Position numbers and translations under genes: made by a program. From a virus, in the IMG/VR virus record IMGVR_UViG_3300028597_000044, positions 1-37,833 of that record: a DNA stretch of 37,833 bases; one strand, written 5' to 3'. The notes below the pieces were generated by a model that was not told the DNA's origin, ran no database searches, and saw nothing but the letters and a program-made list of their open reading frames with translations. This document shows positions 16,436 through 31,514 of this stretch, one piece after another; position 1 is the first letter of the stretch; each line of letters opens with the position of its first letter.

Positions 16436-16511
16436 TGGCTGGAACGGGAGGGCTCGAACCTCCGACCGGGCGGTTAACAGCCGCCAGCTCTACCAACTGA
16501 GCTACATCCCA
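16436..16511 (-). tRNA. tRNA-Asn (anticodon GTT)
   Basis: All four arms fold over 76 bases. The acceptor TGGGATG pairs with CGTTCCA (two G-T pairs), D stem GCTC/GAGC, anticodon stem GGCGG/CCGCC with loop CTGTTAA (anticodon GTT), and T stem GGAGG/CCTCC with loop TTCGAGC. The discriminator is G and CCA is encoded. U1-A72 and G73 are the same as in E. coli tRNA-Asn, so it should be charged normally. It is four bases downstream of the tRNA-Thr gene in the same leftward transcript. Confidence 0.95.
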
Positions 16512-16514
16512 ATT

Positions 16515-16590
16515 TGGTGCCTCCTCAAGGATTCGAACCTCGTGTCGTCTCGTTACGAGCGAGCTGCATCACCGTCAATGCTTAGGAGGC
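16515..16590 (-). tRNA. tRNA-Thr (anticodon CGT), divergent core
   Basis: A 76-base cloverleaf: acceptor GCCTCCT/AGGAGGC, D stem GCAT/ATGC, anticodon stem GCTCG/CGAGA (one G-A mismatch) with loop CTCGTAA (anticodon CGT, reads ACG), T stem CGAGG/CCTTG with loop TTCGAAT, discriminator A and encoded CCA. G1-C72, C2-G71 and G35-U36 match E. coli threonyl-tRNA synthetase determinants. Position 8 is A and position 14 is T, the reverse of the nearly invariant U8-A14 pair, so the tertiary core is unusual. It may be a specialised or decaying tRNA. Confidence 0.82.
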
Positions 16591-26377: not shown

Positions 26378-26704
26378 ATGAACAAAACAGTCATGTTTTT
26401 GCAGGCTGATATGCACCGCGCCATCAACTCCGGGCGTACAAACATCGAGGTTTCTATCCTGGATCTGAAGGAGCTGATCGGCGAGGTCATGCGCGCCGAG
26501 GCAAGGGAAAAGCTGGAGCGCTGCGGGCAGGTGCTGGGCTTCATCCGGCCCTCGCAATGCGAAGCCATGGCATCCGGAAAAGCTCTGTACGTGTCAATCC
26601 GCCGGAAGAAGGACAAGGCCGGCGAATACTGCCAGCCGATTTATCGCGACATCCTCGATAAATCAGTTGAAGTGATGTCAGAAAGCAGTCAGGATAGCGC
26701 CTGA
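26378..26704 (+). CDS. Small accessory protein, 108 aa, function unknown
   Basis: The ATG at 26378 (MNKTVMFLQADMHRAINSG) follows GAGG. The segment CGQVLGFIRPSQCEAMASGKALYVSIRRKKD resembles a short beta-hairpin domain seen in phage accessory proteins. The C-terminus is acidic and Ser-rich. It is the last gene before the structured intergenic region and the recombination genes. No family can be named with confidence. Confidence 0.7.
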   Translation: MNKTVMFLQADMHRAINSGRTNIEVSILDLKELIGEVMRAEAREKLERCGQVLGFIRPSQCEAMASGKALYVSIRRKKDKAGEYCQPIYRDILDKSVEVMSESSQDSA

Positions 26705-26735
26705 AACACAAAGTCTTGGCGGGCTTTAAATTGGT

Positions 26736-26814
26736 AGGGATTCGCGAGCAGAGTGCTGGAACCAATTCCAGTCCGCCAACGCCGAAAGGCGACTCTGCTC
26801 TCGAATCCCTTTTT
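26736..26814 (+). ncRNA. Candidate three-way-junction RNA ending in a U tract
   Basis: A 19-position stem (26736-26754 with 26792-26810, 18 pairs and one mismatch at 26745/26801) encloses two hairpins: CTGGAA/TTCCAG (26756-26761 and 26766-26771, loop CCAA) and CGCC/GGCG (26780-26783 and 26788-26791, loop GAAA, a GNRA tetraloop). The closing strand runs into TTTTT (26810-26814). A terminator-like structure, but far more elaborate than needed. It could be a stable RNA, a processing site or an attenuator before the recombination genes. Confidence 0.65.
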
Positions 26815-29771: not shown

Positions 29772-31514
29772 ATGAAGCTTCAATCCATCGCGATTTCTGA
29801 AGTGCTCGGCCTGTCCAGGGCCGATATCAATTTCGGGGGCGTCACCCTCGTGGCTGGCGATAACGCTGTAGGAAAGTCCACTCTTTCTGACTGCATCAGC
29901 ATGGCGCTGCTTGGTACGCCATCGCGCGTATCGGCAAAGAAGGATCTGGCGCAGCTCCTGCGCGACGATGCCGCAAAGGGCCGGATCACCATCAGCTACG
30001 AAGACGGTGGAGGCACGGCAGAGTTTCGCCTCCCAAAGGGCGAGCATCATGCCAACGAGTTACCCGGGATGCAGTTCCTCCCATTCGTCCTTCGTCCTTC
30101 GAAGTTCGCCGAGCTGGATGCCGATCAGCGCCGAACGCTACTTTTCCAGCTGACCAACTGCAAGACCTCCAGCAAGATCATCATCCAGAAACTGGTTGAG
30201 CGGGGCATCGACGAGTCGCTGGCGACAGACTTCGCGATCAACTGGAAGACTGGATTCCCGGCGGCGGCAAAAGAGGCTTATGCGCGCGGCACAACTGCCA
30301 AGGGTGCATGGGGGCAGATCACTGGGCAGAAGTGGGGATCGATTGTTGCTGAAGACTGGAAAGCACCAATTCCAGAGGGAAAGTGCCCAACAGAAGCCGA
30401 ATTACAGGCTCTCATGGCTGAGCATGAGAAGGTCGCTGCAGAAGTCGAGAAGGGACAGAGGTACGTCGGGGGCTTGGAGGCAAAACGCGAGGCATCTGCC
30501 AGCTACGTGCATCGTAAGCAGGCCGTGGAAGATCTTGCGGGTCAGATCACCCGGCGCAAGGCCAAGCAAGCCGCGACAGAGAAAGACCTGAAGGCGCGCG
30601 AGGCTGAGTTGCCGGCGCTGACCTTGGAGCTTTCAACCCTGCAAGCCGGATCTGTTCCGGTTACCTGCCCATGCTGTGGCGAGCAGCTGCGAATCAATGG
30701 CGGCGCGCTGGAGAAGTTCCAGGGCATGAAGGCCGACACCAAGCTGGTGACCGACTTGGCATTGCGCGTGCGCAACATGAAGGACGCCATCGAGCTGCTG
30801 AAGCGCACACTATCCAACGATATCGCGTCGGTCGCCGAGGCCGTTTCTGCGGGCAAGCAGCTTGAATCGATTTTGGCTGAGCAGGTTGAGGTGATCGACG
30901 AAGTAAAAATCCAACAGGGCAAAGATGCGCTCGCAGGGCAGAAGGCCAAGGCCGATACGCTGCGCTCCCAGTTCAATGACAAGCAACAGGCCCGCATCGA
31001 TTTCTCTAAAGTCGCCGAGAAGACCGAGCAGGCTGCCAAGGCTCACATCGAGGTGAAGACTTGGCTTGCCGTTGGTGATGCGCTGTCGCCAGACGGGATT
31101 CCTGCCGATCTTCTCTCTGACGCGATCGCCCCCTTCAACCAGTCGCTGGCAGCTCACGCCAGCCTGTGTGGGTGGAAATCTCCAGAAGTCCAGGCAGACA
31201 TGGCCATCACCTACGGCGGTCGCCTGTATGGGCTTTGCAGCGCCTCCGAGAAGTGGCGCGCCGATGCGCTGTTTGCGCTGGCGATTGCGCAGATCAGCCA
31301 GCTCAAAATGGTGGTGCTGGATGGCTTCGACATTCTGCACGCGGCCGCTCGCCAGGAACTGCTGGGCATGTGCTGCCAGCTTGAGCAGATGAAGTCGATG
31401 GAAACCATCATCCTTTGCGGAACGATGAAAGAGCTGCCGCCGGCTTCGGCGCTGGCCAAACGAGGCGTAACAGGCGTATGGATTGCCAAAGGCATTGCGG
31501 AGAACCAAGCATGA
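29772..31514 (+). CDS. SbcC/Rad50-like ATPase, 580 aa
   Basis: An AAA/SMC-type head is formed by the two ends: Walker A GDNAVGKST (about 29-37) and, at the C-terminus, a signature-like LCSASEKWRADAL (about 488-500) and Walker B MVVLDGFD (about 513-520). Between them are two coiled coils with a zinc-hook CPCC at 299-302. Unlike cellular Rad50/SbcC the Walker B Asp is followed by Gly instead of the catalytic Glu. No partner nuclease (SbcD) gene is seen nearby. It probably works in phage recombination or end processing with RecT and the exonuclease. At 580 residues the coiled coil is short. Confidence 0.88.
   Translation: MKLQSIAISEVLGLSRADINFGGVTLVAGDNAVGKSTLSDCISMALLGTPSRVSAKKDLAQLLRDDAAKGRITISYEDGGGTAEFRLPKGEHHANELPGMQFLPFVLRPSKFAELDADQRRTLLFQLTNCKTSSKIIIQKLVERGIDESLATDFAINWKTGFPAAAKEAYARGTTAKGAWGQITGQKWGSIVAEDWKAPIPEGKCPTEAELQALMAEHEKVAAEVEKGQRYVGGLEAKREASASYVHRKQAVEDLAGQITRRKAKQAATEKDLKAREAELPALTLELSTLQAGSVPVTCPCCGEQLRINGGALEKFQGMKADTKLVTDLALRVRNMKDAIELLKRTLSNDIASVAEAVSAGKQLESILAEQVEVIDEVKIQQGKDALAGQKAKADTLRSQFNDKQQARIDFSKVAEKTEQAAKAHIEVKTWLAVGDALSPDGIPADLLSDAIAPFNQSLAAHASLCGWKSPEVQADMAITYGGRLYGLCSASEKWRADALFALAIAQISQLKMVVLDGFDILHAAARQELLGMCCQLEQMKSMETIILCGTMKELPPASALAKRGVTGVWIAKGIAENQA

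Follow-up and report, generated by a model that had tools for sequence, protein, structure and literature searches.

The question raised by this locus is what a strongly folding RNA does directly before the recombination genes of a phage. We analyzed a window of 37,833 nt, the whole stretch of viral DNA in IMG/VR record IMGVR_UViG_3300028597_000044, in which an earlier note, made from the sequence alone, had described at 26736-26814 a stem of 19 positions with a single mismatch that encloses two hairpins, one with a GAAA loop, and is followed by a U tract. All of these parts were confirmed. The GAAA hairpin directly abuts the long stem (P3), and the sole mismatch among the 19 positions is C26745 against U26801, at position 10. 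The minimum free energy of the fold was -45.6 kcal/mol, compared with -22.95 ± 3.32 in 200 dinucleotide shuffles (z -6.8), none of which reached as low a value. The placement before recombination genes also proved correct: the RNA occupies the gap between an ORF of 108 aa, with its stop codon at 26702-26704, and a RecE-like/YqaJ exonuclease gene, which is followed by RecT. An SbcC-like gene (palindrome nuclease subunit; window 29772-31511) lies in the same operon as the RNA and is relevant because the operon DNA contains a 19-position near-palindrome.

The three-way junction described by the earlier note is present, as one of two mutually supported folds of an element that starts about 26 nt earlier. 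The covariance-model match to the window spans 26710-26814 (94.1 bits), so that the element is about 105 nt long with its true start at about 26710, and the segment 26710-26735 had been missing from the first description. This segment holds two strands with partners further downstream (Table 1): the loop of an upstream hairpin (A1) is complementary to six nucleotides of the junction strand (A1'), and a second stretch (A2) is complementary to the loop region of inner hairpin 1 (A2').

Table 1. Features of the leader element and its surroundings (window coordinates unless a locus is named).
Feature	Position	Strand	Evidence
Weak promoter candidate TTGAAG-N17-CAGGAT, overlapping the upstream ORF end	26667..26695	+	Same hexamers in relative L003; TTGACA-N17-CAGGAT in L004
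Hairpin A: AAAGUC/GGCUUU stem, 6-nt loop UUGGCG	26710..26727	+	Stem covaries in relatives, 88% paired; within covariance-model match
A1: loop UUGGCG, partner of CGCCAA 26774-26779	26716..26721	+	Long-range complementarity
A2: AAUUGGU, partner of ACCAAUU 26761-26767	26729..26735	+	Covarying long-range pairing
P3 5' arm, 19 nt	26736..26754	+	Fold; covariation
Inner hairpin 1: CUGGAA-CCAA-UUCCAG; A2' (26761-26767) in loop and upper stem	26756..26771	+	Three of four scored pairs with compensatory changes
Junction strand UCCGCCAA, including A1' CGCCAA 26774-26779	26772..26779	+	Letter-identical in Burkholderia phage BcepMigl
Inner hairpin 2: CGCC-GAAA-GGCG	26780..26791	+	Covarying stem; loop sequence varies among relatives
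P3 3' arm, mismatch U26801 against C26745	26792..26810	+	Fold; covariation
U tract, five T, terminator-like	26810..26814	+	Sequence; recurs in relatives
GGAG ribosome-binding site and exonuclease ATG (26833), 22 nt past P3	26822..26833	+	Sequence
RecE-like/YqaJ exonuclease gene	start 26833	+	PF09588 YqaJ; phrog_434 RecE-like exonuclease, E 7.8e-76
Type 2 loci	L366-L448, e.g. L369:4095-4229		48 distinct sequences

To find relatives, the window RNA was compared with phage sequences by blastn. The sole informative match was 23 identical nucleotides in Burkholderia phage BcepMigl (E 0.03), in an intergenic gap ahead of the replication genes of that phage; the core UCCGCCAACGCCGAAAGGCGA is identical to that of the window, and the long stem is wholly different in sequence with its pairing retained. 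FelixO1-like phages gave a 21-nt match (query 107-127, covering the 3' arm and U tract) that was taken as chance (E 0.4), and blastn among phages with the RNA of member L117 gave no match. The close relatives L003 and L004, with exonucleases 92% and 83% identical to that of the window, have further upstream CUUGGCGG in common with it, the loop of which is UUGGCG. Exonuclease relatives in the temperate phages epsilon15 and D14P have no upstream gap and no such RNA.

Searching IMG/VR for two loop motifs returned at least 120 stretches, and a second pattern returned 86. We then required both hairpin A and P3, by which about 45 of the first-pattern matches were discarded for absence of the structure, and retained at least 114 distinct records, or 113 after one copy was dropped. 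The window RNA therefore has at least 113 distinct relatives, nearly all from phage contigs, most of them collected through patterns that prescribed the letters of A1 and A1', and many of them on related contigs. Isolated phages with the RNA are the Burkholderia phages BcepMigl, DC1, CSP3 and BcepIL02. Among 84,980 prokaryote genomes, a pattern of this kind matched only two contigs. Of the 398 genomes of the phylum to which the covariance model was applied, one had the element, and that one had already been identified. The RNA therefore belongs to phages and is for the most part not seen in prophages.

The stems are conserved by compensatory change. Such changes, which the earlier note had proposed looking for in relatives, were seen in 18 of the 19 P3 pairs among 41 diverse members. 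Across these members 96.9% of cells were paired, against 71.9 ± 0.7 when shuffled and 34-45% with slid partners, and double-changed cells numbered 363, against 89 ± 9 in shuffles. The A2 helix is conserved in the same way: its two strands change together, as AACUGGU/ACCAGUU in L003 and ACCAGUG/CACUGGU in BcepMigl, and mean A2:A2' pairing was 6.07, whereas shuffling the partners gave 3.87 ± 0.09 (none of 200 as high). Members with a 15-nt hairpin 1 had 98.7% of A2:A2' paired (71 ± 2.3% in shuffles, 23-47% in slid registers), and their double-changed cells numbered 55; where hairpin 1 is 16 nt long, pairing was 77%, against 56 ± 2%. The six A1:A1' pairs are possible in all 41 aligned members and nearly invariant, an invariance that is in part built in because the search patterns required those letters. 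A single compensatory G-C to A-U change (UUGACG/CGUCAA) occurs in L308, which was found by a pattern-free search via its downstream protein. The stems and A2:A2' are thus conserved by compensatory change, and A1:A1' by one such change.

The long stem is constrained in length as well as in pairing. P3 has 19 positions in nearly all of the 113 listed members, in which other segments vary in length, and 80 of these members have a P3 mismatch at position 10 or 11. Since the letters of the mismatch vary (A.C, U.U, A.G, C.A), it is the mismatch itself that is kept. A2 adjoins P3 without a linker, and its helix takes in the first one or two P3 nucleotides in 85 of the 113 listed members, so the A2 helix and P3 compete directly. 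A rough A-form estimate gives a reach of 53 Å along P3, compared with at most about 47-51 Å via hairpin 1 and A2:A2'; by this estimate a full P3 and a full A2:A2' could not coexist, a conflict that would be relieved if one to three of the outer pairs of P3 opened.

The surroundings of the element are also regular. In the window, a stable stem (P3) runs directly into five U residues, the arrangement of an intrinsic terminator, and P3 with its U tract is predicted to be a good one by sequence. A U run of at least five follows P3 in 103 of the 113 listed members; the tract is absent in L107, L150 and L160 and broken in L177. The next start codon lies a median of 17 nt past P3 and within 40 nt in 109 of 111 listed members, which leaves little room for another promoter. 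At the other end, 69 of the 113 have a -10 hexamer that precedes the A1 loop by 10-14 nt, and 67% of upstream regions score at least 7, against 19% of shuffles; on this evidence, transcripts should begin at hairpin A. The element therefore sits at a fixed place downstream of a promoter and just upstream of a start codon, as a leader would. The promoter is weak in the window, where a strict consensus scan at the element found none, and the RNA may be made there by readthrough out of the upstream operon.

The genes behind the element belong to unrelated families. Among 83 downstream proteins scanned, we found DUF1376 (15), HNH_3 (12), NUMOD4 (9), HTH_39 (5), AP2 (4), YqaJ (3) and HTH_ParB (3). 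We considered autoregulation by the downstream protein and rejected it, because the RNA precedes replication and recombination genes whose products differ in this way (DUF1376, HNH/NUMOD4, HTH_39, AP2, YqaJ, ParB-type). NUMOD4/HNH endonuclease genes often stand directly behind the RNA (L026, L053, L080, L139, L140, L145, L161 and others), a placement that looks as if mobile nuclease genes insert just past the leader.

The predicted fold depends on how much of the RNA has been made. Using ViennaRNA nearest-neighbour folding, which models equilibrium rather than kinetics and does not score pseudoknots, transcripts of the listed members ending at the junction had mean probabilities of 0.80 for A1:A1' and 0.49 for A2:A2', and both helices stood at 0.8 or above in the nascent RNAs of only 43 of the 113. 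Once the RNA was complete, the two helices fell to 0.00 and P3 reached 0.96-0.98. For the window, the best nascent structure up to 26792 was the A1A1'/A2A2' hairpin (-28.7), and the best full structure at 26814 was the terminator fold (-50.3). The conserved helices appear mutually exclusive, one of them is the predicted terminator stem, and the folds differ by transcript length; we read the element as a leader switch because the nascent and complete RNA favour different folds.

In other phages the DUF1376 replication gene is preceded by a different RNA (type 2), whose long-range topology is that of the window's kind (type 1). The type 2 hairpin A loops GUGGAAA, GUGAGAA, GUGACAA and GUGGC are matched by UUUCCAC, UUCUCAC, UUGUCAC and GCCAC, respectively; an A2:A2' helix is present as well, and so is a long P3, again interrupted by an internal mismatch. 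Type 2 mostly lacks the U tract, and the outer part of its P3 pairs the Shine-Dalgarno/ribosome-binding site GGAG. Pairing was 95.6%, against 90.5 ± 0.4, with 91 double-changed cells, against 31 ± 4. Here A1:A1' itself covaries, at pair 11/110 (A-U 17, G-C 12) and pair 12/109 (G-C 16, A-U 12, C-G 1), and type 2 could be a covariance family of its own. Four loci with exonucleases 61-63% identical to that of the window (L205, L206, L207 and L209) have a type-2-like RNA with a U tract upstream of the exonuclease gene, with the pairings GUGGAAC/GUUCCAC and GACCAGAUGCCGGGG/CCCCGGCACUGGUC identified by eye. Judged by these sequences, type 1 and type 2 appear to replace each other at the exonuclease locus. 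One topology thus recurs ahead of both genes, DUF1376 and exonuclease, with sequences that differ and platforms that are interchangeable. All told, hundreds of other phages have the same or a parallel RNA directly ahead of early DNA-replication genes.

The earlier note knew of no RNA family with this layout, and that holds for Rfam 15, which covers neither type 1 nor type 2. At the gathering threshold, no family matched the element in the window or in 22 homologous or neighbouring loci, and a permissive scan of the window region gave chance-level matches only. The Rfam matches in these loci were two adjacent tRNA genes in the window (16439-16590, - strand) and an int-alpA RNA (RF02996) at L305:906-980 (38.5 bits, gathering 35.8), a locus without the window-type RNA. 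The int-alpA RNA also lies directly upstream of the DUF1376 replication gene in a phage contig but differs in sequence and fold, and neither the window nor the searched type 1 and type 2 loci match RF02996. A similar-looking motif, GAAACACGGCUAGG...CCGAAAAG...CCUGCCG...GUUUC, was seen by eye before the start codon in many of 80 loci, which suggests that int-alpA-like motifs are a putative third leader RNA at the DUF1376 gene. We found no description of the element in the part of the open literature covered; a paper about JC1, a related phage of the Bcep22-like group, gives ordinary predicted terminators only.

We consider it probable that the element, about 105 nt long, is a leader RNA that acts in cis and gates the gene immediately downstream, with P3 as the OFF platform and the upstream pairings competing against it. 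When OFF, the RNA would form an intrinsic terminator made up of P3, both inner hairpins and the U tract together with hairpin A. In the competing state, A1:A1' and A2:A2' would form before the P3 3' arm is made, holding the P3 5' arm in a loop. If some signal kept these early pairings, RNA polymerase would read through into the exonuclease/RecT operon, or in relatives into replication-initiation and other early genes; if P3 formed, transcription would stop (type 1) or ribosome binding would be blocked (type 2). We infer that the RNA passes between these two states in the cell, that P3 is OFF and that a signal shifts the balance. The two types would represent two platforms on one plan, terminator and hidden Shine-Dalgarno, by analogy with riboswitches. 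Like riboswitch-type leaders, the element is a structured 5' leader located at a promoter, with helices that exclude one another and a platform that is a terminator in type 1 and a hidden ribosome-binding site in type 2; unlike them, it occurs almost only in phages, before unrelated early genes, and outside all Rfam riboswitch families. It appears to work like a riboswitch or attenuator, and is described here as riboswitch-like rather than filed as a riboswitch. Another phage RNA that changes termination in the early transcript is put of HK022, an RNA antiterminator that suppresses distant terminators and carries none, whereas the window element has a terminator built in.

A discrete small RNA acting in trans, with its own promoter and terminator, would use A1 and A2 to pair between molecules, for self-regulation or superinfection immunity, and would target its own read-through transcript or related phages in the manner of IsrK, C4 and P4 CI RNA. 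We regard this as unlikely. Although a promoter at the 5' end and a terminator at the 3' end suit such an RNA, a free small RNA would not require a start codon as close as the one found here, and most type 2 relatives retain the same pairings without a terminator-like U tract. The loops themselves have some features of recognition loops, as UUGG in the A1 loop matches YUNR, their U-turn consensus, and the A2 sequence differs between phages as expected of specificity loops; however, intramolecular pairing is favoured because both partner strands lie within one RNA. IsrK of Gifsy-1 is a phage leader RNA with a terminator, a terminated short form, a read-through mRNA and alternative folds (PMC4825925), and IsrK/C4 antisense RNA (Gifsy-1, P1/P7) is the nearest described phage system in logic. 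IsrK differs in that it pairs with a downstream ORF, whereas the partner strands of the present element are all within the same 105 nt, and no C4/IsrK antisense profile matched in the Rfam scans (all 4227 families).

Quite improbable, in our view, is a static, unregulated element, either a strong intrinsic terminator or a protector of the mRNA 5' end, in which the pseudoknots would only fold or stabilize the RNA. The complete fold is very stable and P3 with its U tract makes a good terminator by sequence, but a plain terminator would block the gene behind it and needs no conserved central mismatch or two covarying long-range helices. Nor does it need a fixed stem length; the constant 19 positions of P3 fit a rigid tertiary fold and could reflect a single static one with a frayed base. 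An RNase III processing site of the sort that separates early genes on the early transcript of T7 is very improbable: P3, which lies between early genes, does offer a duplex of about two helical turns that contains an internal mismatch, but such a site has no need of the U tract, hairpin A, A1:A1' and A2:A2' or a 5' promoter, the mismatch type varies freely among members, and, as with the RNA decoy that the earlier note also raised, neither the conserved long-range pairings nor the tight start-codon link is explained. Among the options of that note, a regulated terminator is the best supported.

The cis-acting leader may be part of something broader. Tentatively, the RNAs could form a phage-specific class of riboswitch-like sensors, with at least two structural types and interchangeable transcription and translation platforms, in which a double-pseudoknot core would read a host or infection-state signal and gate DNA replication and recombination. 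To our knowledge, phage leader RNAs with a sensing role are hardly known. The analysis yields a covariance model and clear point mutations for an RNA that is widespread in phage contigs and almost absent from bacterial genomes. The element points to an undescribed RNA switch deciding whether early replication and recombination genes turn on.
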